Shown here: piece by piece, positions 25,015-56,850 of the stretch | Layout of the letters: each line of letters opens with the position of its first letter | How positions within the stretch are numbered: position 1 is the first letter of the stretch | Assembly: GCF_003711515.1 (NCBI RefSeq) | Contig: NW_021167083.1 | Coordinates: 880,481-944,480 of the forward strand | Direction of reading: 5' to 3' | Length of the DNA: 64,000 nucleotides | Source of the DNA: Sodiomyces alkalinus F11 | Lineage: Eukaryota > Ascomycota > Sordariomycetes > Glomerellales > Plectosphaerellaceae | Position numbers and translations under genes: made by a program | The notes under the pieces: generated by a model | What the model was told of the DNA's origin: nothing | The model's database searches: none | What the model saw: only the letters and a program-made list of their open reading frames with translations

Positions 25015-27685
25015 ATGAAGACACAGTCAGTCGCCAATATCAAGACTACACATTACGTTTACACTCTCACTGACATGAACAAGATGGAAGGACATCCCTG
25101 CAATCCCCAATCACCAACAGATGACGGACATTGTCCTATCGTCGACCCAGAGGAAACTACCTACCCAGATCCGCGCAGGGTTTAAGATCAGCAGAATCAG
25201 GGTACGTGCTTGCTGGACAGAGCTTCCAAGGGGTTTTTCTTTTGGGATGCGGGTTGCTTTTCTGTTGTCGGATCGAGTTGAGATGCGCCACGGCGACCAA
25301 ACTGGATACGGGATTGTGCACCCGGCAGCGGCTCTCTTCATATGCTTGCTGCGCGATTCAGCTTTGGATGCTGTTTGAAGTCGGAATCGAGGTCGTGCTG
25401 CTAACACCACTGCAGGCATTCTATACCCGTAAGGTCAAATTCACTCAAGAGACCTGCTCTGAGAAGCTGGGCGCCATTGTCGAGGCTTTCCCTCGCCTCA
25501 ACGATATTCATCCCTTCTACAAGGACCTCATGAACACGCTATACGATGCCGACCATCTCAAGATTGCCCTCGGCCAAGTGTCAACTGCGAAGACTCTCAT
25601 TGAGACTGTGTCTCGCGATTACGTCCGTTTACTCAAGTACGCGGGCAGTCTTTTCCAATGCAGTACGAACCAGACCGCCACCCCCTTGCATCTTAACAAT
25701 CGTGTATAATGATACTAACTCGGACCGTAGAGCAACTCAAACGAGCAGCCCTGGGTAGAATGGTCACCATTATCAAGGTACGGCAAACCCCTGAAGAGCA
25801 TATGCATTTTGTGACGACGCTGACCGAAAGCAGCGACTCAAGGACACCTTGCTGTATCTTGAGGAGGTTCGCATGCATCTAGGTCGTCTTCCATCTATCC
25901 AGCCAAATACGCGGACCTTGCTCGTCGCTGGTTTCCCCAACGTTGGCAAGAGTTCTTTCCTTCGCTGTACGTCCATACTCCAGCACTGCGTGTAAAGAAC
26001 CTGCTGACAGATATACTACTAGCGGTCTCAAGAGCGGACACCGAAGTCCAGCCCTATGCCTTCACAACTCGAAGCCTCTTCATTGGGCACTTCGACTACA
26101 AGTATCTGCGGTTCCAGTGCATCGATACTCCTGGAATCTTGGACCACCCCCTGGAGGAGATGTAAGCGGCCGTACCCATGGGAAGATTTGAAAGAACCTG
26201 GCGCTGATGTGGATCTTAGGTCGACTATTGAGATGCAGTCCATCACGGCCATTGCCCATCTGCGGTGCGCCATTATGTATTGTGGGTGGACCCTTACTTG
26301 GATTTACTTCTTCCAACCAAACGGCAAAGAACATTACTGACCCGAGCGAACAGTCATGGATTTGAGCGAGCAATGCGGTTATTCCGTTCAGGCCCAGATT
26401 AATCTATTCAACAGCATCAAGCCGCTCTTCGCGAACAAGCTCGTTTTTATCGTCATCAACAAGATCGACATTGTCAAGCCCGAGGACCTCGACGCAGAGA
26501 CACAGGAGCAACTGAACACCCTCCTGAAAGCTGGTGATGTCGAGATGTTGCAGCTGTCGTGCAGTACGCAGGAAGGCGTTCAGGACGTCAAGAACACTGT
26601 TTGCGAGCGGCTACTCGCCGAGCGCGTTTCAGAGAAGCTGAAGGCCGGCACTACCAACAATGGTGCCATTGGTGGTCGTCTGGCAGAAGTCATGTCGCGC
26701 ATCCATGTTGCCCAGCCGATGGGCGCGCCGCTCCCGACGTTCATTCCCGAGGCGGTGAAGAACCTCAAGAAATACAACAAGGAGGATCCGGACCGACCGA
26801 AGCTCTCGCGCGATGTCGAAGCTGAAAATGGTGGTGCGGGTGTCTTCAACGTCGACCTCCGAGCCGACTATCTTCTCAAGAACCCCGAGTGGAAGTATGA
26901 CAAGGTGCCTGAGATTTTCAACGGCATGAACGTGGCCGACTTCATCGACCCGGAGATCGACGCCAAGCTCGCCGCGCTCGAGGAGGAGGAGGAGAGACTG
27001 GAGGCCGAAGGGTTCTACGACTCGGACGAAGAACTCGACGACGAGGAGGAGGCCACTATCCTCTCCCAAGCCGAACACATCCGCGAGAAGCACGCCCTCA
27101 TGCGCAACGAAGCCCGCATGAAGAAGCGCCTCAAGAACCAGGCCATCATCCCCCGCAAGAAGGTCCGCATTCCGCTCTCCAAGATGGACGATGCCCTCGA
27201 CCAGCTCGGTGTCGACACCACGGACATCGTGTCCCGGGCGCGTTCCCAGTCCCGGCCCAGAGGCCGCTCTCTCACCCGCAGCCGCGCCGGCACCGAGGAC
27301 GCGGACGGCGATGCGATGGACCTCGACGCCACCCCGCGCGAACGCCTGCGGTCCAAGAGCCGTGCCCGTAGCATGGGCCCGGCTACCAACCGTCGCGATG
27401 ATGGTGTCCAGGACGAGACGGCGCGCAGCAAGGCTGACCGTATGGCCAAGTTGGGCCAGCAGAAGATGAACCGTATGGCTCGCCAGGGTGAGGCGGATCG
27501 CCACCAAACGGCGTCTCTTCAAAAGTGGTTGGTAAGTTTTGTCATGAATCTTGCGAACTCTGCAACCCCCCTATCGCTTGATCGGGGTTTTCTTCTTTGT
27601 CTTTGCGTGGAACGTGAAACTTACTCGAGATCTTTTCATCTAGGTTGCCGGTAAGCGTGGCATTGGCAAGAACCAGCGTCGTTAA
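25015..27685 (+). CDS. NOG1: nucleolar GTP-binding protein Nog1, 60S assembly GTPase
   Basis: Nine exons: join(25015..25025, 25084..25201, 25416..25662, 25731..25777, 25834..25966, 26023..26161, 26220..26281, 26354..27531, 27644..27685), 658 residues, with every junction in phase. The first exon is 11 nt. The Obg-type GTPase domain has the G1 P-loop GFPNVGKS at 174-181, G3 Asp-Thr-Pro-Gly at 220-223 and G4 Asn-Lys-Ile-Asp near 272. The N-terminal 165 residues are the helical Nog1-specific part. The C-terminal half is acidic (about 375-400), then rich in Arg/Ser (about 455-520), ending in basic Gly-Lys-Arg-Gly-Ile-Gly-Lys-Asn. Nog1 binds pre-60S particles in the nucleolus and is essential in yeast. 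Length matches the family. Confidence 0.95.
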
Positions 27686-34445: not shown

Positions 34446-36700
34446 TACACTTAAACTCTTTTAGGTTAATACAATCCACTATATCCCCATCACCCGAAAT
34501 TAGGTGGGTTTTGCAGGTCTCTCGATATACTATCTAACCCCTGATAAAACGTATAATATATACTTGCGGGACCTGAATACACTAGTAGTATTACAATAAG
34601 GAGTGGAGTAGATTATAATAAGATATATCAAAAGTGGAGATTTTCTATATAAAATACAGGGGTTTAGATATACTAAATCAGGGGTTCTTAGTATCCTGTT
34701 AAGCGACCTTATAGCTCCCTAATACGTCGAAGTCTAAGGCATTATTTCGAAGCATTATATTAGCCCTGAAAATAAAGCAGAAAACACTTCTTATATAAGA
34801 ATTCTAAGTAGTAACTAAATCTTTTCGTATAGTAAATAGCTATCAATAGATTTTGGATTAACTTCACGATATCCTATTATAGTATTAAGTTTTTTTTTAT
34901 ATTAGTGCAGGTACGTCTCTCGAACCTTCTCAATTTTCCTAAAAGGGTAGACTACAAAGGTACCACTTTGTACGTTTTTTCAGGGGTTATATAGTATACA
35001 AACAGAATCAAAGGAAACGGTATAAGTCACTCTACGAATTATTGTATCCTATTAAAGCTATTGCAACTACCCTAATTATAACCGTAATATCTATCTTTTT
35101 AAGCCCTACGGGAAGCCCTAGCAGGCCTACCGCTATCTTTGCCGCTATTATTATCGCACGTCAAAAGGCACTTGAATAATCAACTTAGTAGAGCAGAAAT
35201 CTCGTGTGTGTGTATTATATTAAGTTATATCTAGGAGAGTCTCTTATACCCTTAATTAGGGTGGTGAAGACTCTGTTATAGGTACTATATTATTTAGATC
35301 CTATCCGGTCTTTTCCGGTATCCGCCCCTATTATATTCTAATACCCGAGGTCCCCGATATCCTAAGCCCTTAATCATAGCGTGAATCCCCCCTGGATCCC
35401 CTATAGACCACGTTATAGTCCGTGCGCCCATACGACAATTATTCGGTACTAAAAGAGGTATACAGGCTTTAAAGGCCTATCTTTTAGCTACTAAAATAGC
35501 CTTAGCGGACTAGTATAGGGCATAAACCTTAATTCCTATAGTCTAGTTACTCTGTTTTAGGCTTTACTATATTAGGTATATTAGGCAGATTATTACGGAG
35601 GATTTCCGTTGTTAAATACCGAGTTATACTGTATTTAGCTTCTACTAGCCTTTAGCCTTTAGAGTAATAGATGCCGCGCTATAGCTTTAGGACTATATAC
35701 GTGTAATAAATAAATAAGAAAAAAAATTTATCATTTTTACTACCACGGCTACTACTATAACGACTGCTATTATAGTAGCTGTAGTAGTAAAAAGGTGGAT
35801 ATTATAGTTATAATTAGGATTATAAAGATATAATGAATTATATTAACCTAAAAGAGTTTAAGTATACTCAGAGGACCGAATAGGAGGGGGGGACTAGTAC
35901 TCGGCCGTTATTACTATACACTCCCCTTATATACCCCTGGCCACTAGTATTACTAGTTAGCTTGGCCTTGCTCGGACGTTAAGGAGTTATAATATAGGTA
36001 TACTCCGATAGTAAGGAATATTAGCTTAGATAGACTACCTGATAATCTGCTAATATTATTCCCTAAGGTATTATTTAGTCCCCTTATAACTAGATCAGCC
36101 TTTCCTAGTAGGCTATAACTAATAATACCCTGATAATATTAGCTACCTTATAGAGCGGTATAACCCTTAGGAAGGTTAGCGTATCGGTATTTCGTAGTCT
36201 TAGCTAGTATCAGGCGATTATAGTAGGCTAGAAGGAGGTGCTAGATCACGTCGCCTAGTAAGCATAAATGCTTCTATACAGTATATATTAGTAAATAAAT
36301 AAAGTTAAAAGAAGCAGAACTAACTTATAGAGCGATTTAGGCAGCGTATTATCTTATATATAGAGTGAATACTCTTACTGGGTAAAGGTAATATAGTGGT
36401 TAAGAGGCTATCAAGTTAAGGTAGCGATACACGTCGGTTATATTATATCGAGTGATATTATATCGTATTACTAATATATTTACGGCATTTCTTTAATTAG
36501 TTAAACGAAATTACGATACGCTAGGCAGTTATTAGGAAAAGGAGGTAATTAAGTGGTACAGGAAGGAGAAAGGCCTAAGTATAGAGTAGAGGAGAAGGAC
36601 TAAGATAAGGTGTCGTGAGATACATCGACGTGTACTCCTAGGTATATTAATCTATATATGCACGGACCCTATATTTACACGTGATGTTGGATTTGGAGGA
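34446..36700. other. AT-rich, RIP-ruined block
   Basis: TpA-rich DNA with no open frame of note and dense TAA/TAG/TTA triplets. It is most likely an old transposable element ruined by RIP, but I cannot identify which. The change from normal composition is sharp near 34,450. Confidence 0.6.
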
Positions 36701-36719
36701 ATTCGAAAGCTACTCCCGT

Positions 36720-36763
36720 GGCAGCGGCACACGCATTCCGTTCTAAGTGCGTGTGCCGCTGCC
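36720..36763. repeat. 16-bp perfect inverted repeat (GC-rich hairpin)
   Basis: GGCAGCGGCACACGCA at 36,720-36,735 is exactly mirrored by TGCGTGTGCCGCTGCC at 36,748-36,763, with a 12-nt loop. It is a GC-rich island in AT-rich DNA, about 300 bases before the DUF3435 relic. It could be a boundary or recombinase site of that element, or a fragment of another repeat. Confidence 0.85.
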
Positions 36764-37059
36764 TAGGGGACCGCTTTTGGACGCCAGCGGCTACAGGTTC
36801 TAGCCCCCCCGAGCACCCCCGGTAAGTACAAGTCGCTAAGAAAATATGTACTCTAGAGCGGCATGAATATACTGCCTGCCTATAGTGGTACTTGTTAGCG
36901 CCCTCAAGGACTAATACAGAAAACGGTAAACTGGCTAAGGTTAACGGAGTTAAAAGGTTACTCTTTCCCAGGAACTACCTGAGTCCTTCCCTCTCTAAAT
37001 GTATTATACCCTATACTCCTATCGAGTCCCTCTAAGTAAGCCGCTCGTTTCGTAGATAT

Positions 37060-39560
37060 AGATATAGACCCACTCTTACGTCGTATTTAGCAGGACTTCG
37101 CTAATAGCGACCTATCGGACGTATTGGAGATTATACTAGATAAGCTACACGCCGTTACAGAAAAGGCTAATACTCGTCGTCCTATCAGGCCGCGATATTC
37201 GGAAGCATACGGCCGTAATATCGTCTAGGGCTAGCGATAATAGGAGAAGTTCTGTCTCTGGATAAAGTACGAAAAGGGTTAGCGGGATAAGCTTAAGGAC
37301 CTAACCTATAATAAGCGAGGCCTACTTAAGAGCTTTATCAAGTATTACCTCTAACGACAAGGCTTTAAAGTTATAGCTAAGTTAACGATTAAGAGGTATC
37401 TCTAGCAGACCTATATAGTCTATAAGAAGTACACGGACCTTACTGTCGATAAGGCCCTACGAACGCACACGATTAATTTTACTACCGACTTTATTAAGTA
37501 TAAGTATAAGCTAAGGACCGAGCCGAAGACTAAGAACTATATTAGACCCGACGTATACCTTTACCTATCTTACTTTTTATAGGTACGCGATTAAAAGAGA
37601 TAGTTTAGTATTAGCCTAGACCGCCTCGACGATACGACTCTCTAATACTTCCTTATATTTACTAGCGCTCGACGCTATAAGCTTATCTACTATAATATTC
37701 TAGAATAGAAGGTATTAAAAGAAGAATACCACGATCTCTATAACGTCTTTACCGATCTAAGCGAGGACGATAACGTTCCGCCGCCTTAGGGTCCTTACTA
37801 GGTATACGGTAAAAACGATATCAGGATAACCCTAGCGAAAAAGGTCCTTTACTAGGAGGATATTAAATTATAGATTATATAAAATCCCTCTAATAACGGC
37901 GGTAAAGACCGGCTTACTATATCGGTGCTTTTCCGATTCTATAAGGACTATAAGAGGCAGCAACGGCCTACTAACTTCCTCTTTATCGAGGAAGACCTGC
38001 CCGTAATCTGCCCCGTCTTTTACTTACTCGCGAAGGTGCTAGCCGAAGACGTTATCGCTAACGAAGGGTACTCTTAAGCCAAGAACTTCTTTCGCACTAA
38101 AATTACTAAGCGTGGTATATACTTTACGTGGAAGGAAGAGTTTATGCATAAACCCGTTTTCCGGTAGTCCGTTAAGTCGCTAGAGGGCTATATAAAATCC
38201 GATAAACCCCTTACGGTAAACTAGCTAGATAATAACTCTAATAGACTAGGTAAGGCAGCTAGTTTACCGGATAATCTAAAAAGCTACGACTACTAGCAAG
38301 GAAACCTCGAGTCGATTAACGGTTTATATTACGTAACCTAGCCTTTCTACTCTACCTCTAACCCTTTTCGTAGCTAATTACCGCTTAATAGTCCGGAAAT
38401 AGGTCGCCCGATATAAAAACGACGGTATATTCTAAGACTATTATAATAACGCCCGGACTAATATCGTTACCTAGGATATATTCCTTAGCCGCGGCACTAA
38501 GTCTCTGTACCTCGCCCTCTTTAACTAGCTCGGTATTCAGGTTAATAAGGATACGCTAATAGGCGTTACCGATAAGATAATACGAGTTATCGGACCGAGT
38601 ACTAAGGTCCGTATACTAGACGAGTAGGTCCTGTCGCTACGGACTACCCTTAAGTCCCGCTATAGCTAAGCGCACTTAGTAACGGGCGTAGATAAAGTAT
38701 AATACGACGAACTACTTAAGTAATATAAAGCTACTGCCTAGAAGCACCGGCGTAAGGGTAATAGAGAGCACGCGCCGCCACTACTTTAATTTAAAGAATT
38801 ACTAAGAGCTCGAAAAGCAGTTATACGGTACCGGTTATACTAGTAATTCCCCCCTGCCCGCTATTATATTTATCTAGCCCGAGCGGAGACGTATAGCAGA
38901 ACTACTCGGCGACCTAGATATTAACTTATTAGAAGACGAATTAGTCCAGCGGAAGATTAACGTCATTAGTACCTAGGTGGCTCTTACTTAGAAGGTTAAG
39001 GTCAAGGAGATATAACCGGAATAGATCTCCTTAAAGCCGTTACCCACTATATCCTTCCTATTATATCCTCCCTAGTAAAAGCCGCCTTATATAAGGCTAA
39101 TCAAAGATATAGCACCGACGCTAATATAATATCCGCTCTCTTCCTAGGTCGGGATTAACTATAGTAAAGAGAATATAGATATAGGCGTAATACCTGCTAT
39201 TAAGCCCTCGCCCACCCCCGTCACCACTATCAAGCCGTCTATACCTCTAGATATTACTCCTGCCCCGATTAAACCGACGCTTCTAAGTCCTAGGATCATC
39301 ATCAAGCAGCCCTCTAGCCTAAAAGAGGCTACGCCGTGTCCTAAGGGGTAGCAGAAGCCCGATCCCTATATCTTCTACGGACGTATATTCACGCGAACGA
39401 CCATAATATAGAAACACGTTAAAAGCCATCTTAAGATAAGAGGAGACGGCCCGTTACTATATCTAGTGCAGATATATAAGGAAAAGAGTATAATACTAAA
39501 CGACGACTTTACTTTCCGCATATATACGTTTTATAAACACCGAGTACGCCTTAAGCCGGT
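37060..39560 (+). pseudogene. RIP-ruined DUF3435 (FluG/tyrosine-recombinase-like) gene with C2H2 fingers
   Basis: Reading the plus strand through stops gives a coherent DUF3435-family protein. Landmarks are a Thr-Ser-Ala-Arg block near 37,660 (position of the first catalytic Arg of tyrosine recombinases), Cys-Pro-Val-Phe near 38,010, a Phe-Phe-Arg-Thr...Trp-Lys-Glu...Lys-Pro-Val-Phe-Arg block at about 38,085-38,165, Leu-Glu-Ser-Ile-Asn-Gly near 38,310, and, in another frame, Asp-Ile-Phe-Leu-Ser-Arg-Gly-Thr-Lys-Ser-Leu-Tyr-Leu-Ala near 38,475. Downstream (39,368-39,535) are two finger-like units in which metal Cys codons read Tyr. TAG/TAA replace Gln and Trp throughout, as RIP predicts. The frame changes near 38,395. 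Some DUF3435 proteins are the captain recombinases of Starship elements; others are plain FluG-domain genes. No functional product can be made. Confidence 0.8.
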
Positions 39561-41384
39561 TATTCGACTTAAGATAGGCGGGGCGGCGGGCAAAACAGCG
39601 CCGTCAGTAATTAGGATCATTTTAAAGAAGACGGCGTGCACGTAAAGGTCTAGATAGTAATATAAATTAATTCCGTATAATTGCTATTATTCCTATTACT
39701 ATAAAATAGACTAAGTACACGATATAATAATAGCGGGGTATTAGTCGGCTTATAGCCGCACGGTTTAAGGGTACGGTAAAATATATACCTAACCGGGCTT
39801 ATAACTAAACCAGACAGCCCTATACTAGTTCTAAGTCACCTTAAGGGTATTATTAATAGTAAAATATCCTATCTTATAGGAGGCTTTTAGCTACGTGATT
39901 AGTGCTTAAGTTACTTTTATAGATAAAGCTTCTAAGCCTTACACTTCGCTCTGTCTCGTAACTACTAATCTATAAGATCGTAGTCTCGCCGGCCCGGCCT
40001 AAATATATATAGTCCTATACTAGTACTTATTCCTTTAAACTTCCTGTATACGATATACTCCCTCGCGCTCCCTATTAGCGGCACCTTACTATATAGTAGG
40101 TAGGCAAACTAAGTCTACTAGGAAGGGTAAAGGGCTTAGGTACGTGTAACGGGTTAGGATAGTAAAGGTCGATCTAGGTAAACCTTATTATAAGTCTAGG
40201 TAGTAAAACCTGCTACGCTATAAGGTTAGGGGATAGTAAACGACGGAAACCTTTACTAGTATATAAGCTACGTGGCCGAGGATAGTAAAGCCTATATTAC
40301 TTTACTAGGCAGGGTTAGGACCGTTTCCTAGTTAAGTCCGAGTTTTATTTTACCTAGTAAACTAATAGTTACTTACTTACTAGATAATATATTATATCTA
40401 GTTAACTAGTATAGAGCGTTATAGGTTTATATATATCTTTACTACTAAACGAATAACGGCTAGTTTACTAGTAGATATTCCTTTATTACTAGAAAAGCGA
40501 CCGACCCTTTACTAGAAAGGAGTAGCTTCCTAGGGCGGTAAACTAATTAGCGCGATATTCGTAGTAAACGGTTCTATAGTTAGATAGTAAACTTCATAAA
40601 GTGTAAGACATTTATCCAAGTAAACTAAAAGCAGAAAGTTAGCTAGTAAAGCTCCTAATCACCTTCCCCTTCTTACTAATTATTAGGGCCCCTATCTCCC
40701 TTACTTAGATTACTAATTAAGGTTTATCGACACGAAACGGGTTTCTATTCCCTAAAAACGGTCTTTATTCGTTTACTAGCTAGCTAATATACTATAATAA
40801 GATAATCGCGTTATAATTAGCGAGTACTTAGCGAAGAGTCGGACTAAGCCGCGCACGGTTCACCTTAGTCGAGTACGTGTCTCCTCGGCCTATAACCCGA
40901 TATACACTCGGAACATAGTATCGCCGATATTATTAAAAGAGTGCGTGGTTTTTAGTCTCCCGAGTGGATAGATTGTAAAAGAGTCAGTATTTATATAAAT
41001 AAGGAATAGCACTCCTATAGCCTTTCGCCCTTCGTCGAATTAAGAATAAATGATTACGGAGTAGAAGGGTTAAGGCTATTTTACCTAGAGTTTCTGCTAT
41101 TTAATTTCTTAATAAAATAAAATAAAAAGATTAAAACTAAACCTAAGTAGCTCGACTTTTATGAATAGCTTACCCCATAGATAGAGCATGCTAAATCCTT
41201 CCTATTAGCGGATCCTACTAATAGCCTCCTCTAACGACTTAATACACTACTCCGATAACTATAATCGCCGCCCACGCCATAACTGTTTAGGAGACAATGT
41301 TTCCCTTGAATAAGTGCCTTCTGAGTTGCGCGAATTAATTGCTATCTATTCCACGTGGTGCTAATTGATACTTTTCCAAGCCGT
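39561..41384. other. AT-rich block after the DUF3435 relic
   Basis: TpA-rich non-coding DNA. Its middle (about 40,250-40,790) is punctuated by TTACTAG/CTAGTAA motifs, treated separately. The composition returns to normal around 41,300, where the Spok-like gene's 3' flank begins. Confidence 0.55.
40250..40790. repeat. TTACTAG-motif block, left copy
   Basis: About eight occurrences of TTACTAG or its complement CTAGTAA within some 540 bases, mostly extended to TTTACTAG. A similar and denser block lies at 58,255-58,915. The rest of the two blocks is not obviously colinear by eye. Confidence 0.6.
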
Positions 41385-43703
41385 CTAAGTCACTTCACGC
41401 CGTGACTGTAGATGACGTGGTAGGAAGCCACGTTTCCGGGTATGACTACTGAATTCTGGACCTGACCTCTTTCTCTTCTTCCCTAACAAATCAGGAAACT
41501 GCTTGTGTTTGGGACTTGGGAGAAGGGTGGCACGGTCAAAGTCGACGAGCATAACACGGCGGCGCTCGTTGTTCCAAAGCCGATTGGCGTCACGTTCGTC
41601 GCCGTGGTCCACGCCTTCGGCCCAGACAGCCTGCGAGGAGCGCCGAACCTCCGCCTCCACGTTTGGTATGCACGCCGTTGTTACCGCCTCGCCGCCCCAC
41701 GACATCAGCATCATGTGGACGACCCTGGCCCAGCCGGGAAGGATGTAGCCCGGGTCTAACCGGACCAGTCCCAGGTACACCGGCACAACCTCGCCCTGGA
41801 GCCTGTCGAGCCGCGCATAGACGCGGCTCTCGTGCTCCAAGTCGTGGAGGCGCCCCGAGAGTGTCCCCTTTCCCACGAACGTATAGCTGTACGGCTGCAG
41901 TTCCAGCTTGAAGAGGAGCCCTGTCGCTCCCATCTTGCCCCAGCCGTCCAACGCTATACAGCCACGATACGGGTTCTGGCGCAAGCGCTCACCCATCAGG
42001 CGGACGAACTTGTCCGCGTCGATAGGATGCCGGTTGTTGCCTCCAGCAGCGCGGTGGGCGAGCACATTGGGGCAGCTGCCGTCGAGTTCCCCCCCCTTCT
42101 TCAGGCCCAACAGGCAGGCTTGCGTGCAGTATTGCCGGGTGGGTGGCGAATCAGACATCGTAGCGTCCCCATCCTCGGAACTGCCGCTTGAGGGACCTTC
42201 CTTCCGCTTACTACCGTCCGTCTTCGTCCAAGACGGGAGTACGTCATCGCCGGGCCCATCCTCCTCGTCCTCGTCTCTGCGGACGTCCGTCGTGTCCCTG
42301 CAGGACGACCTCGATCGTAGTAAGAATTCACGGCCGGCCGGCCTCGCGCTGGATACGAAATTCGAGCCCTCTGTCGTTTCTGTTGTTTGCGACGACGACG
42401 ACGCCGCCGCCGAGGGTGAATGCGTCTCGAGATTTGCCGCATCCTCGTACGGATCACTCCACTTTCTCAGAACTCTCTGAGCCTTCTGCAATGCCGCCTC
42501 GAGTGCCGCACCCTGGAGAGCTTCGGATCGGAGACTCAGTAAGCAGAAACTGGCTAGTTGAGCCACGGCGGTATAGGGCGCCATGTCAGGCCAGTCTGTG
42601 GTCGACATTTCGCCCACCTCTTCGCCAGGAATGCACGGATGGCAGTATAAAGTCTCTGGGTGGGTTCGGTCGACGTAAAGAAACAACAAGGACTGGCCGG
42701 CAGCCACGTAGCCGTAGACCACCCCGTACCTGATCATGTAGTCGAAGACTTGAGTTAGTGCCATGGCAATCAGTGCTTCCGCCCTCTCCTGTTCCTTCAG
42801 CTCGCTATCGCTTCGAGTAGTTGTATTGTTATTCATTCGCTCAACAACTTCCATAAATAGCTTCTCCTTCGCGATGGCCGGCCTAAGATACCTGATGGCG
42901 ATCTTGTGGGCTGCCTTATAGTCGTACACAAACGCCACGCTCTCGCTTTCGTCTAGGCGCGTACGAACTCCCCATCCGTCAGGTTTTATCGGCGGAGGCA
43001 TAACTCTCTGCTCGGACGCTACTCGTTTATTTGGTCCTGTTCGTCGCCGCCGCTCATGTCGTTCCTCGCTCGGGTCATCCTTTTCCCTAGACGGGCTACT
43101 ATCGTTCGGTTGCGTGAAGTCGCGGTTGTTGTTGCTGAATCGAAGCCCCATACACGAATATTCCCCACGTAGTTCCTCTTCTTCCCAGAGTGGACGCAGA
43201 ATTTCCCAGACAGGATGTTCCACGGCAAGCTTCTCAAAGTTATCGATAGCGTTCTCGTTGCCTGCCGCATTGCGAGAGATGGTCGACCCTAGATCTCTGG
43301 TCGTATTCTCTCGATGGAAGAGTCGTCTTTCTCCTAAGATCGTCCTGATGACCTCAAAATGGCGTTGTCGGTGGACGTTGGCGAAATTGTCCCAAGGGCA
43401 AAGCCACTTAGGGTAATATTTCCCCTCGACCCTCGTGAATCCCGTCGAAGATTTGGATGGGTCGGAAAAACCGAGTTTTTTGTAGAGGTGAAAGTGGCAG
43501 TTGTATAGATATTCCTCCAGCGTAGTATTCTGGTTCTTGCGCCGTTCCTGCTCTTCTCGTGCCTTGGCCTGTTCTTTCTCGCGCCGCTCTCGCTCTTCTC
43601 GTGCCTTGGCCTGTTCTTTCTCGCGCCGCTCTCGCTCTTCTCGTGCCTTGGCCTGCTGCAGCTCATGCTGGAGCCTCTCAATCTCTCGAAGGTAATCGGA
43701 CAT
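41385..43703 (-). CDS. Spok-like protein: coiled coil, PD-(D/E)XK-like nuclease, kinase-like domain
   Basis: An intact 772-residue frame. Residues 1-58 form a charged coiled coil with in-frame 14-residue repeats. Residues 60-180 match the conserved N-terminal module of this fungal family (Tyr-Leu...Cys-His, Trp-Leu-Cys-Pro-Trp). A Val-Tyr-Asp261-Tyr-Lys263 site within a beta-strand context fits a PD-(D/E)XK nuclease. A Ser/Glu/Asp-rich linker follows (425-520), then a Cys cluster (Cys526, Cys530, Cys544). The C-terminal kinase-like domain has His700-Gly-Asp702...Asn707 and Asp721-Phe-Asp723. A basic patch (Lys742-Arg746) may be a nuclear signal. This order matches Podospora Spok proteins, single-gene meiotic drivers in which the nuclease part kills and the kinase-like part protects. 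All key residues appear present. Whether it drives is unknown; many homologues are uncharacterised. Confidence 0.78.
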   Translation of the reverse strand: MSDYLREIERLQHELQQAKAREERERREKEQAKAREERERREKEQAKAREEQERRKNQNTTLEEYLYNCHFHLYKKLGFSDPSKSSTGFTRVEGKYYPKWLCPWDNFANVHRQRHFEVIRTILGERRLFHRENTTRDLGSTISRNAAGNENAIDNFEKLAVEHPVWEILRPLWEEEELRGEYSCMGLRFSNNNRDFTQPNDSSPSREKDDPSEERHERRRRTGPNKRVASEQRVMPPPIKPDGWGVRTRLDESESVAFVYDYKAAHKIAIRYLRPAIAKEKLFMEVVERMNNNTTTRSDSELKEQERAEALIAMALTQVFDYMIRYGVVYGYVAAGQSLLFLYVDRTHPETLYCHPCIPGEEVGEMSTTDWPDMAPYTAVAQLASFCLLSLRSEALQGAALEAALQKAQRVLRKWSDPYEDAANLETHSPSAAASSSSQTTETTEGSNFVSSARPAGREFLLRSRSSCRDTTDVRRDEDEEDGPGDDVLPSWTKTDGSKRKEGPSSGSSEDGDATMSDSPPTRQYCTQACLLGLKKGGELDGSCPNVLAHRAAGGNNRHPIDADKFVRLMGERLRQNPYRGCIALDGWGKMGATGLLFKLELQPYSYTFVGKGTLSGRLHDLEHESRVYARLDRLQGEVVPVYLGLVRLDPGYILPGWARVVHMMLMSWGGEAVTTACIPNVEAEVRRSSQAVWAEGVDHGDERDANRLWNNERRRVMLVDFDRATLLPSPKHKQFPDLLGKKRKRSGPEFSSHTRKRGFLPRHLQSRREVT
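43551..43660 (-). repeat. 42-bp in-frame minisatellite
   Basis: About 2.6 near-perfect copies of a 42-bp unit inside the Spok-like gene, encoding 14-residue heptad-compatible blocks rich in Arg, Glu and Lys. Because the unit is a multiple of three and of seven residues, copy changes keep both frame and coiled-coil register. Confidence 0.9.
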
Positions 43704-47504: not shown

Positions 47505-47711
47505 GGGCATAGGGGATGCGAATTAAAGGATGTAGGGGATGTGATTTAGGGGATGTGATTTAGGGGATGTGAATTAAAGGATGTAGGGGATGCGAATTAA
47601 AGGATGTAGAGGATGTGAATTAAAGGATGTAAGGGATGTGAATTGAAGGATGTAGGGGATGTGATTGAGGGGATGTAAGGGATGTAGGGGATGCGAAGTA
47701 AAGGATGTAGG
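47505..47711. repeat. GGGGATGT minisatellite
   Basis: About nine imperfect copies of a unit of roughly 23 bp (GGGGATGTGAATTAAAGGATGTA) and shortened forms of it, all in one orientation. It ends where the LINE tail begins. It is G-rich on the plus strand but does not match the fungal telomere repeat TTAGGG in period. Confidence 0.9.
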
Positions 47712-47717
47712 GAACGT

Positions 47718-48496
47718 ATTGGATTGGATTGGATTGGATTTATTCATAGTCTGTCCCAGCCGCCCTATTAGAGTTGAAGCTTTGAACTTATGATACAAGT
47801 GTGTCTCTTCTTTCTCACTATTGCAGCAGGCATAAGCTACTTGTAGCCGTGGCTATTGTCTCCCTGCTGCCTAATGACAATGGCTGCCTACTAGACAGCC
47901 TCCTCAGTGACACATGGTTTTGGGATCCAACTATTAAGCAGCTATGCAGCGTGCAATTCAAAGTGTAGGTTTTTCCACTTCTTCCTGGGAGGTTGGCTTT
48001 TCTATACAGGAATATTCTCGTCTGCCAACAAGTTGTTCCTGTCTGAGTTACTACCCTCCAGCTCTAGCGTAGTTACCCCTTTGCTAATAGTCTTTCTACT
48101 CGTTCTATACCTATAACTTATTAGGCCTTTCCTGGCCCTCTTATTCTTCTATATAATACTAATTACTCGTCCTTACCCATTCTCATCGATTTGATGCTGG
48201 ACCAAATCCGTGTTGAAGAAAAGGAACAGAACAGGCGACAGCGGTGAACCCTGAGGTAGCCCAGCTTGAGGCAGGGAGCGAACCTCCGAGTCCTGGCCGT
48301 TGACCTGAATGCTTGCTGTCTGTTGCGAACAGAATGCATCAACCCACTCCACCAGCTTTTCCAGGATCCCTCTCGCCTTGAGTCTCTGAAGGAGTCTTTC
48401 TTTATACACTCCGTTGTATGCGCCTTTGACGTCGAAACTGACCAGGCTGGAGACTTTTCTCTTCCTCCATGCTCTGTAGATTTGATATGGCATTAG
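47718..48496 (-). mobile_element. 5'-truncated, internally deleted LINE (Tad/I-like)
   Basis: On the minus strand a 106-residue fragment (48173-48493) carries reverse-transcriptase motifs: Ser-Phe-Asp-Val-Lys-Gly-Ala-Tyr-Asn-Gly-Val (metal-binding motif A) and Gly-Leu-Pro-Gln-Gly-Ser-Pro-Leu-Ser-Pro (motif B). The catalytic YADD/YVDD part that should follow is absent, so there is an internal deletion. The 3' end has AATAAA (47,739-47,744) followed by four and a half copies of an ATCCA unit (47,718-47,740), the kind of short-repeat tail seen on LINEs that do not end in poly(A). It is inactive. Confidence 0.8.
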
Positions 48497-48614
48497 GTTG
48501 CTATATGAGATCTCGGAATGTACAATCGTAGCACCAAGGTGTAATTAACATTGTTGGACTCTTAATTCGCGAAAGAAATTGAATTTGTGCCTCCTCTTGT
48601 CCTAAATAATCTCC

Positions 48615-53162: not shown

Positions 53163-53581
53163 GTCGAGAGGGAATAGTCTGCTTAGCTCGATTCGAGTAC
53201 TCTTCTCCGCGCCAAGTTGCCGTACGGAAACTAGTAACTGTGCTGTGCGAGTTTCGTGAGGGCTGGGCAACGGAGGGTGAGAGAGCATTCCCAGAAACGC
53301 CGCCAGGCTCTAGAGGATGTCGTGGCATGTCGGCCTATTGGGCTGTCGTTCTGCCCCTGGTTGAGCCTTGCGTCGAAGCGGCGATAGGGAAACGATTGGA
53401 CCAGAAATGCAGCCCCAGACCCAGCCGCACGCGCTTGGCCACGCATTATTACCTTCCCCTCATTAAGAACAAGCTCCCGTTCGACTGTTCCTACCATGCC
53501 TCGCTGGAGCCATTCAGTATTTCTATTATTTGCAATCCAGGAAGCTCGTAGGCAGAGTTAGAGTCCCCCCAAGCTTATGGT
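53163..53581. other. spacer between two pseudogenes
   Basis: About 420 bases with overlapping minor frames and no recognisable domain. The 5' flanks of the minus-strand membrane-protein relic and the plus-strand NLR relic lie here. Confidence 0.4.
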
Positions 53582-56500
53582 ATGCTAGCCCTTCCCCACA
53601 CGCGGTCCGTATTAACCCGTCGCGCAGGCCACCAGGACCCACGAGCGTGGCTTGGGCCTCCGCCAAGTGTGGCCACCCGATACGAGCAATACCTCCACCA
53701 TCGAGTAAGTGCTAGGCTGCCCACGGACAGCTTTGGGAATGCGCCCCGCCTGACGCCTGCTAGCATTATCGCCATCCACGGCCTCGGCACGCAATCGCCG
53801 AGAACGTGGGTGTTCAAGAAAAAGGACGGGTGCGAGGTCAATTGGCTCGCCGACCAGACAATGCACCAGCGGCCGTGCCCGAGGCCAGCATATTCACATA
53901 CGACTGGGATGCGAACTACTTCGAAGATGCGCCAGTACAGACTCTCCTGGGCCACGCCGACTCCCTCCTTGCCCACGCGAAAGAGAACCAGTCGGTTTCG
54001 AAGCGGCCGGTCATATTCGTTGCGTCTTGCTTCGGAGGGCTCGTCCTGGCCGAGGCCTTGACTCGAGCCGCCCAGGAGGGCAGTCGCTACCGCCAGGTCC
54101 TTCATTCGACCGCCGGCATCGTCTTTCTCGCCACCCCCTTCCAGGGCGCCGATGCCCGCCGGGACGCCCAGTGGCAGGTGATCGTCGGCGGCATCATGGG
54201 GGAGGATACGTCGGACCGCCTGGTGCAGGACCTGGATCGGAAACACGATTTAGTTCTCCAGCGAGTGCAGAAGTTCGCCGAAGTCATAGACGCCGATTCT
54301 ATCCGCCTGCCCGTCTACTGCTTTTACGAAACGAAGAAGACCGAAATAGTCAGGCGTGTGCTGTCGTCAGGACTGGCAGCCAAGTTCTCAACCCGCTTCA
54401 CACGCAAGATAGTTCGTTCTTTCTCTTGCCGTTCTTGCTCCTTTTGCTAACATGGTCAGCTCGTCAGCGAGTCTTCCGCATGCCTTCATGGCTTTCCTCG
54501 TCATGGTCTCAACGCGACACATTCCGGAATGAACAAGTTCGACGGTCCGCACAGTTCAAACTTCAAGTTAGTCAAGGCCGCCGTTCAAGAGCTCGCCAAA
54601 AACGCGCCGTCAGCAATAAGCCGGCGGACATGCGCCGTGCCGGGCCATTGGACCGTGCCTTTCCGTCGAAACCAAGACGATAAGAATGAGAAATGCCTGA
54701 AGGATCTTCACGTAACCGATCCCCGCGAAGACAAGAAGCGTATCCAAGATACCAAGGGCGGCCTCCTTAGGGACGCTTACCGCTGGGTCCTTAACCACGC
54801 CGACTTCCTGCAGTTTCGAGACGATCCCAATAGTCAGCTGCTCTGGATCAAGGGCTATCCTGGCAAGGGCAAGACGATGCTTGTGCGGTATCATCGACGA
54901 GCTGGGGAAAGAGCCTTCGAACCAACTGTCCTACTTCTTCTGCCAGGCCACCGCGAACCGGCTCAACAACGCAACGGCTGTGCTACGAGGTCTGATCCTT
55001 GACCTCGCTCGGCAGCACCCGCAACTCGTCTCGTACGTCCGAGAGAAGCATGATTACGTGGGCAAGGAGCTGTTTCACAACGATAACGCCTGGCAAGCCC
55101 TCACGGGTATATTGACGGCTATGCTAAACGACGCGTTGTTAGAACGTGCGATCCTGATTATTGACGCCCTTGACGGGTGTGAGACGGGCCGGCCTCAGCT
55201 CCTGCACTTTATCACTAGCTTCACTAGCTCTACCTCCCGCGTCAAGTGGATCATCTCGAGCCGTAACTGGCCAGATATTGAGAGGCAGTTAGAGAAGGCT
55301 ACGCAAAAAGTCAGGCTGAGCCTCGAGCTGAACGGAAACTCGATTAGCAGTGCTGTTACCTTCTATATCCAGTACAAGATGGCGCAATTGGTGTCCAAGA
55401 AGAAGTACGACGAACGAACGAGGGACGCCGTCCAAAGCTACTTGGTTGCCAATGCCGATGGGACTTTTCTCTGGGTCGCCTTAGTCTGTCAGGCGCTCGC
55501 CGATACCAATGTCCGAAAACGACACACGATGCAGATGCTGAACTCGTTTCCGCCCGGCCTGGATGCTCTGTACGAGAAAATGCTAAATCATACTCACGTC
55601 AAACGATGCAGCTCTTTGCAAGGACGTCCTGGCAATCGCCTCGGCCGTGTACCGTCCAGTTACCTCAAAGGAACTACAGGGTCTCATCGAATCGATGGAG
55701 GATGTCGATGAGGACGAAGTCGAGGAAATCATTGGATCCTGCGGCTCTTTCCTGACTCTACGAGAAGGCGTCGTCTATTTCGTGCATCAATCAGCCAGGG
55801 ATTTTCTTCTTAATATAGCCCTGGATAGGATCATGCCCCAAGGCATCGCACAGTGCCACCACGCCATCTTCTCTAGGTCGCTCGAAGCGCTGCAAAAGAC
55901 TCTCCAGCGCGACATTTATGATATTCGAGACCCTGGATTATCTAACGACCAGATCACCCCACCAGACCCCGACCCGTTAGCTTCCATTCGCTATGCCTGC
56001 ATCTATTGGGTCGAACATCTGGACGAATTTTCCCGCCTAACGAAGGCTGACAACGACCTGGCCGAAGGCGGATCCGTTGATACATTTCTCAGGAGCAAGT
56101 TCCTTCAATGGTTGGAAGCGCTTAGTCTGTCGCGCAGCATGTCGGAGGTGGTGATAGCCATGCACAAGTTGCAAGCAATTACTACTGTACGTGCCATTTA
56201 TCAGTTACTGGGAGTATGAGCTGACGAATGCAGCAGACCGCAGCCTCGATTAATGTCAAAGCACTCGCCCAGACGCACTACGATTCATTCTCTCTCATCG
56301 AACCGCAGTTAGGGTTGCTCCACTGCAAGTATACGTATCAGCCCTCGTCTTTAGTCCCTTTTGCAGCGAGGTCAGAAAATTATACACAACAGAGCTGCCA
56401 GAGTGGATTAAATTGAAGCCTGTTATGCAAGAGACATGGAGCCCGTGCCTTCAGACGCTCGAGGGCCATAGCGGCCCGGTCGACGCCGTCGCCTTCTCGC

Positions 56501-56850
56501 CCGACGGCACGCTAATAACATCGGCTTCTTCTGACGGGACGGTACTGCTCTGGGATACGGCATCGGGCGCGCACCAGCAAACGCTCGATATAAACGTACG
56601 CCGACTTGCATTTGTTCCGATGTCCAATTCGCTGCTCTCAACAGCCAGAGGAGTTCTAAACTTACATCCTTTGTTTTTTACGAACACAACGGCCATCACT
56701 GAGAATCAGCCCATCGCCAACGCTGGACGAATATTGGCTGACGACGCTTGGGTCTCCCCGTCGCTCCAAGGGGGGAAAGGCGATAACACTCATGGGAACG
56801 GAAGGTGCTGGTGTCTGTGGCCAGGGGAGCGTCAGACTACACGGTAGTGG
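53582..56850 (+). pseudogene. NLR-like STAND protein relic: alpha/beta hydrolase-NACHT-WD40
   Basis: Domains lie in order but in shifting frames. First is a SERAC1/DUF676-type alpha/beta hydrolase (53,750-54,400) with Ile-His-Gly-Leu-Gly-Thr and an elbow reading Ala-Ser-Cys-Phe-Gly-Gly at about 54,025. Next is a linker ending in Met-Asn-Lys-Phe. The NACHT domain has the P-loop Gly-Tyr-Pro-Gly-Lys-Gly-Lys-Thr (54,853-54,876) and the Walker B Ile-Leu-Ile-Ile-Asp-Ala-Leu-Asp (about 55,151-55,174). A winged-helix-like region follows, then one WD40 repeat near 56,450-56,560. Frameshifts fall near 53,865, 54,885, 55,600 and 56,385. Real introns remain at 56,187-56,233 and about 54,415-54,461, the latter with a damaged donor. 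Fungal NLRs act in self/non-self recognition and cell death. This copy looks dead. Confidence 0.8.

Follow-up and report, generated by a model that had tools for sequence, protein, structure and literature searches.

A clade II Spok homologue as probable cargo of a Starship-type element with a dead captain in the soda-lake fungus Sodiomyces alkalinus

The Spok genes of Podospora, Spok1–Spok4, are spore killers that each act as a single gene. As described in PMC6660238, Spok3 carrying K240A loses killing and keeps resistance, and the D667A form is toxic except in the presence of wild-type Spok3; PMC9972908 reports that SPOK1 acts on DNA. Enterprise, a Starship once called the Spok block, carries Podospora Spok genes, Arwing is described as another Spok-bearing Starship, and in Fusarium 33 of the 408 relatives placed in a phylogeny (FuSpoks) sit in Starships (PMC12693581). 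Across the entire family, spread is described as patchy (PMC6660238). Here we analysed a 64,000-nucleotide stretch of the genome of Sodiomyces alkalinus F11 (contig NW_021167083.1, positions 880,481 to 944,480; hereafter the window), which contains a Spok-family gene, P0001, as one open frame of 772 codons from ATG to stop at 41385..43703 on the minus strand. S. alkalinus is placed by taxonomy look-up in the Plectosphaerellaceae, as are Verticillium and Plectosphaerella, and literature searches pairing Sodiomyces with Spok, or Sodiomyces with Starship, found no paper. Our data make it fairly probable that this clade II Spok is carried as cargo by a Starship-type transposon, with a probable length of about 49 kb, in which the captain is dead, the duplicated parts have been broken by repeat-induced point mutation (RIP) and the Spok frame has stayed open. 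Positions are those of the window unless prefixed with a contig: C5 is the window's contig, and C1, C2, C3, C4, C7, C11, C12, C16, C17, C18 and C22 are other contigs of the same genome.

The frame has a GC content of 57% (65% at third positions). In a search of approximately 5.8 billion proteins, with 7,987 candidates scored, its product matched 260 homologues at E ≤ 0.001, the best with an E value of 0 and 68–69% identity over 99% of the length. Among the best 120 of these 260, the closest were from Verticillium albo-atrum (69%), Bombardia bombarda (68%) and Zalerion maritima (66%), and Fusarium proteins were numerous, mostly at 60–68% identity. Among the matches listed, an entry named Meiotic driver SPOK4 was 52% identical over 91%, and Podospora PODANS_5_10, which we take to be Spok2, was 48% identical. 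A quick tree, with SH-aLRT support alone, 16 open forks and a clade I without a named sample, placed the Sodiomyces protein inside a group of 57 homologue rows taken from the search matches, together with SPOK4 and Spok2 and apart from six divergent paralogues of the same genome. Within this group it falls in an open fork with V. albo-atrum, Plectosphaerella and a group of 21, rich in Fusarium, to which Bombardia and Zalerion also belong, and the tree lends no support to recent arrival from any sampled lineage. Comparison of the sequences thus confirms a true Spok homologue of clade II at 41385–43703 on the minus strand, grouping with the Podospora drivers. An earlier reading made from the letters alone (hereafter the sequence-only reading) had proposed a clean 772-residue Spok homologue here, and both the frame and the assignment held. 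In the matches listed, its identity to the FuSpoks and the homologues from V. albo-atrum, Plectosphaerella and Bombardia reaches 69%, with coverage of as much as 99% of its length. Sodiomyces differs from them in having a single full-length clade II copy, which lies in a derelict element on a contig of 2.9 Mb.

The protein shares with Podospora Spok1–Spok4 the order of its domains, the catalytic residues, an N-terminal repeat, an intronless coding sequence and its tree group, and differs in its identity of 48% to Spok2 and 52% to SPOK4 and in belonging to the Glomerellales, family Plectosphaerellaceae. A 42-bp tandem repeat of 2.9 copies (43534..43655, minus strand) encodes the N-terminal coiled coil, with residues 2–57 predicted as a helix (block pLDDT 80–96); the corresponding repeat of Podospora Spok genes is described as variable in length (PMC6660238). 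The PD-(D/E)XK nuclease core (residues 241–357; 42633..42983, minus strand) contains P241-D242, D261-Y262-K263 and Q318xxxY322. It is followed by a Cys/His cluster, C526-x3-C530-x13-C544-x5-H550-x8-H559, and by a kinase-like domain (residues 563–732; 41508..42017, minus strand) with K612, E625, H700-G701-D702, N707 and D721-F722-D723. The landmarks given for Spok3 are a PD-(D/E)XK motif spanning 219–240 with K240, QxxxY at 294–298, a Cys cluster whose last spacing is x7 rather than the x8 of Sodiomyces, and D667 (PMC6660238). Every landmark residue that we tested is present in the Sodiomyces protein. Across the 57-row alignment, P241, D242, Q318, Y322 and all five residues of the Cys/His cluster are invariant, as are D702, N707, D721 and F722 of the kinase-like part; K263 is found in 56 of 57 rows. 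The coiled coil, the Cys cluster and the catalytic residues named in the sequence-only reading all proved to be where it had put them. Its view of Asp261 as a conservative option did not survive, since Asp is the usual Spok state: position 261 is D or E in 56 of 57 rows (D in 52, E in 4), and the triplet D-Y-K is found in 47.

Structure prediction supported one of the two catalytic folds more clearly than the other. For the whole-protein model, lists of similar folds were dominated by kinases, and the model shows a kinase fold. The nuclease region, modelled separately as residues 183–422, gave Foldseek matches without significance, so that the nuclease fold is weakly indicated by the model, while the motif itself is firmly recognizable in the sequence. 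A Pfam hmmscan of the 772-residue protein at E ≤ 0.1 returned no family match; the protein database searched assigns it PF27653, a family presumably missing from the Pfam copy scanned. A sequence search of the PDB returned two matches, both to connexins and both insignificant.

The element around the gene is best defined at its left end. A terminal repeat, CTAAGTGCGTGTGCCGCTGCC (36743..36763, plus strand), is identical in copies on C5, C18 and C4 (the last at C4:1520780, minus strand), and the flanks outside it are unrelated among the three. Genome-wide, the left-end pattern had 11 matches at three or fewer mismatches, two of which are right ends read backwards, leaving nine candidates; a reversed-pattern control gave one match. 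Read by eye, eight of the nine have further sequence in common, and C4:2033207 does not clearly do so. The left end of the element is thus firmly placed at 36743. Approximately 300 bp inside it, and reading inward, lies the relic of a captain tyrosine recombinase (DUF3435; 37040..38830, plus strand, outer limits set by eye), which has many stops. Its match to PF11917 (37856–38320, plus strand, 53.8 bits) contains four TAG and two TAA codons, and a search of the genome with the DUF3435 model gave 13 matches including this relic. With X at the stops, the relic found no match by tblastn (E ≤ 1e-3) against 13 loci that included a captain on C11 and a Spok-family gene on C12.

The same arrangement is present on C18. 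A block common to the two contigs (36743..41501; C18:146826–151561) starts at the terminal base, includes the captain and ends with the last 39 codons of Spok. The C18 captain relic matches profile positions 51–215 (51–209 in the window), the distance from captain to Spok end is about 3.0 kb on C18 and 3.1 kb in the window, and order and orientation are alike. Over 4,735 aligned bases the copies differ by 302 transitions, 20 transversions and four indels, and of the 304 transitions in a first alignment, 128 fell at CpA/TpG with the neighbouring base kept. The last 117 bases of Spok are identical at 113 positions. Captain and Spok are therefore joined in two copies.

Terminal repeats are reported to occur in some Starships (PMC12134995). 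In the window, a right end that belongs to a different copy within the element family (36560..36741, plus strand) abuts the left end head-to-tail. Five other places match this segment, all ending within two bases of one point and differing beyond it; the right-end pattern had 15 matches genome-wide and its reversed control none. Left and right ends form inverted repeats of each other over their inner 16 bases. To the right of 36743, the first right end found on C5, with two mismatches, is at C5:966438, a distance of 49.2 kb that places it 22 kb past the window. It carries the inverted 16-bp repeat with two mismatches, and ATTCCGT is found at both borders. We infer that this end closes the Spok-bearing element, giving a length of about 49 kb (C5:917223–966438). 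We had considered C5:966377–966440, which has a 64-base similarity, as a paralogous empty target, and rejected it because five further places share its endpoint, which makes it a right end of the family. In having a DUF3435 captain at the left end that reads inward, and Spok as cargo, the element resembles Enterprise and Arwing; it differs in its dead captain, its putative length of about 49 kb and its own family of terminal repeats.

Several observations weigh against this reading. The end at C5:966438 is approximately 80% similar to that at 36741 over 64 bases, whereas a C4 right end is 88% similar over 182. ATTCC is present in every right end that we read, and the left border abuts one, so that the direct repeat is not independent evidence. 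A run of N lies inside the putative 49.2-kb element. The right-end pairing is weaker than the left end for these reasons. For the activity of the cargo, PMC12693581 reports that, of six Fusarium relatives, four were without effect in yeast.

Three observations concern the ends and their surroundings. At 36719–36763, where right end meets left end, the sequence forms a palindrome whose arms are 16 bp long, such as a tandem or circle junction would give. Near the putative right end, at C5:958–965 kb, we noted by eye chitinase-like, chitin-binding and LysM-like frames. At C1:4627484–4629294, left and right ends of this terminal-repeat family lie 1.8 kb apart and bound a short copy that could not hold a captain with cargo.

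The sequence-only reading had described a decayed region in which nearly every neighbour is broken, and had taken the clean Spok frame as a sign of the gene's own drive or of recent arrival. This description holds for parts of the window. RIP-type dinucleotide bias covers about 34–41 kb and 56.5–64 kb, with shorter stretches further left, and the right block extends to about C5:954 kb; 41.5–56 kb is not decayed in this sense. The captain is broken, as is an NLR gene, but a NOG1 frame at 26356–27654 is open, as are three ORFs (207, 223 and 241 codons) further right than Spok. The NOG1 product is 100% identical, at 91% coverage, to a protein of S. alkalinus F11. The marked parts are those that are repeated elsewhere: 36.7–41.5 kb on C18, 34–36 kb as dispersed repeats, and the stretch 56705..64000 on C4 (C4:28138–35634, in four pieces 88–96% identical, 93% over the longest). 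The stretch 41.5–49 kb is without RIP signal and has only short matches elsewhere in the genome, and 49–56.5 kb, also without signal, has only distant matches (63–77% identity, save a 48-base piece at 85%). RIP indices shift at 41.3–41.5 kb, where the duplicated block ends. Most likely, the body of Spok escaped RIP because it had no second copy. Since RIP hits duplicated stretches and the Spok body is single-copy, the clean frame requires neither drive nor recent arrival, and that part of the sequence-only reading falls, leaving its interpretation partly supported, chiefly in the Spok family assignment. We also considered C1:7340494–7341348 as the empty counterpart of a 6.5-kb insertion next to Spok and rejected it, as 34525–34997 is a dispersed repeat also found on C17 and C3. 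Two further features lie in the unmarked stretch, a reverse transcriptase piece (RVT_1) in a minus-strand frame at 48176–48544 and an array of 7.4 copies of a 23-bp unit at 47510–47685.

The coincidence of RIP marks with duplicated stretches, and a Spok body without a second copy, are also what would be expected of a homologue that once drove and is now a fixed or inactive passenger, open because it was spared by RIP and little time has passed. A neutral gene of this length would have collected only about 1.2 lesions since the C5/C18 split, as estimated from the observed indels and transversions. The better evidence on this point comes from conservation. Of 132 columns that are at least 95% conserved in the other rows, the Sodiomyces protein departs in one (G606S), against a median of two per protein over the 57 rows (range 0–22), and its branch is a long one, at 0.26 changes per column. 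This points to long-term constraint, which speaks against a mere passenger, and is silent on the most recent time. A second, weaker contrast is offered by the NLR gene (53552..56598, plus strand), which comprises, by eye, an esterase-like part, NPHP3_N/NACHT, a winged helix and a first WD40 repeat. It shifts frame, with NPHP3_N divided over two frames at profile position 41, and seems to continue into the RIP-marked block. NLR genes are a known type of Starship cargo. The NLR is broken and Spok is open in the same unmarked stretch; because only about one neutral lesion is expected, the contrast is weak. We regard the passenger explanation as possible but distinctly the less probable one.

If the gene works as its family does, its protein would be a single-gene toxin–antidote. 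By analogy with Spok3, the PD-(D/E)XK nuclease domain around K263 would damage the DNA of cells or spores that fail to retain the gene. In carriers, the toxin would be neutralized by the Cys/His cluster together with the kinase-like domain around D702. Toxicity, antidote action and drive of the Sodiomyces Spok are what we infer from this homology, and active drive is possible. The same activities might serve in vegetative cells, through addiction or heterokaryon competition, with no meiotic drive. Spok3 and two FuSpoks are reported to be toxic in vegetative or yeast cells (PMC6660238, PMC12693581), and vegetative maintenance has been proposed for Fusarium (PMC12693581), but S. alkalinus forms cleistothecia and ascospores, so that meiosis is available to a driver (PMC5706713). 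We hold this vegetative role to be doubtful, though worth keeping in view. That Spok is not cargo at all, a segmental duplication or chance insertion having placed the captain relic beside it, is very unlikely: ordinary duplication could explain the block common to C18 and C5, the right end is putative and the region is crowded with repeats, but the C18 similarity starts at terminal bases that are also found in a third copy (C4), the three flanks are unrelated, and the captain reads inward from the left end, as in Starships.

A search of the same genome with the protein gave 13 rows: itself, six open frames (two of them in two rows each), three fragments and one weak row that adjoins the C1 Spok-family gene. 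The six frames (C5:519705, C7:71452, C4:1500727, C12:1155043, C5:294596 and C1:2689294) are full-length and divergent, with about 29–38% identity and 753–871 codons from the first Met. All keep the nuclease D and (D/E)xK, QxxxY, the three Cys, and D and N of the kinase; the kinase loop of the C1 frame has N-D-D where the others have H-x-D. In the tree, five of the six group together and the sixth is on a long branch, all outside the 57-row group. One of the C5 frames is 92% identical to SODALDRAFT_333083 of strain F11, whose gene model is shorter. The fragments lie on C18 (81% over 43 residues), at C1:7340482 (68% over 75) and at C11:687261 (44%, with a stop). The C11 fragment is about 10.6 kb from a DUF3435 captain locus (C11:675005–677035) whose matched pieces are stop-free.

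Two of the divergent frames are located within members of the window's element family, or next to an end of one. A left end at C4:1520780 and a right end at C4:1451679, both on the minus strand, delimit a putative 69-kb element that holds C4:1500727 and a distant relative of the window's NLR piece (C4:1458453). The C12:1155043 frame is approximately 1.5 kb inside a diverged left end (three mismatches), and no captain relic was found between them. For seven genes and nine left ends in 43.4 Mb, about 0.003 such approaches within 2 kb would be expected by chance, a figure uncorrected for clustering in repeat-rich sequence. One Sodiomyces Starship family may tentatively be proposed to have joined Spok genes more than once: the clade II gene of the window, and the frames at C4:1500727 and C12:1155043, which belong to a second, distant Spok branch. 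If so, Spok would be a regular partner of this family, through co-evolution or repeated capture, and the window's gene would be a driver that survived its dead vehicle.

Selfing would weaken any drive. A search for mating-type genes found an alpha box at C2:4852608 and no HMG box nearby. Equal-scoring HMG-box matches, in two pieces, are present on two contigs (C16:578628–578929 and C22:61597–61898), perhaps from a duplicated gene.

Spok is a known kind of selfish gene, found here in an unexpected soda-lake fungus, and its dead Starship-type carrier is what is new. Because RIP spares single-copy cargo, finding Spok intact amid decayed sequence is not in itself evidence of drive. S. alkalinus offers a compact test case: of its seven open Spok-family frames, good evidence places one within a Starship-type element, and two others are in members of that element family or next to an end of one. 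As the species is described as culturable, with ascospores and 18 known strains (PMC5706713), presence or absence of the gene and its segregation would be directly testable.
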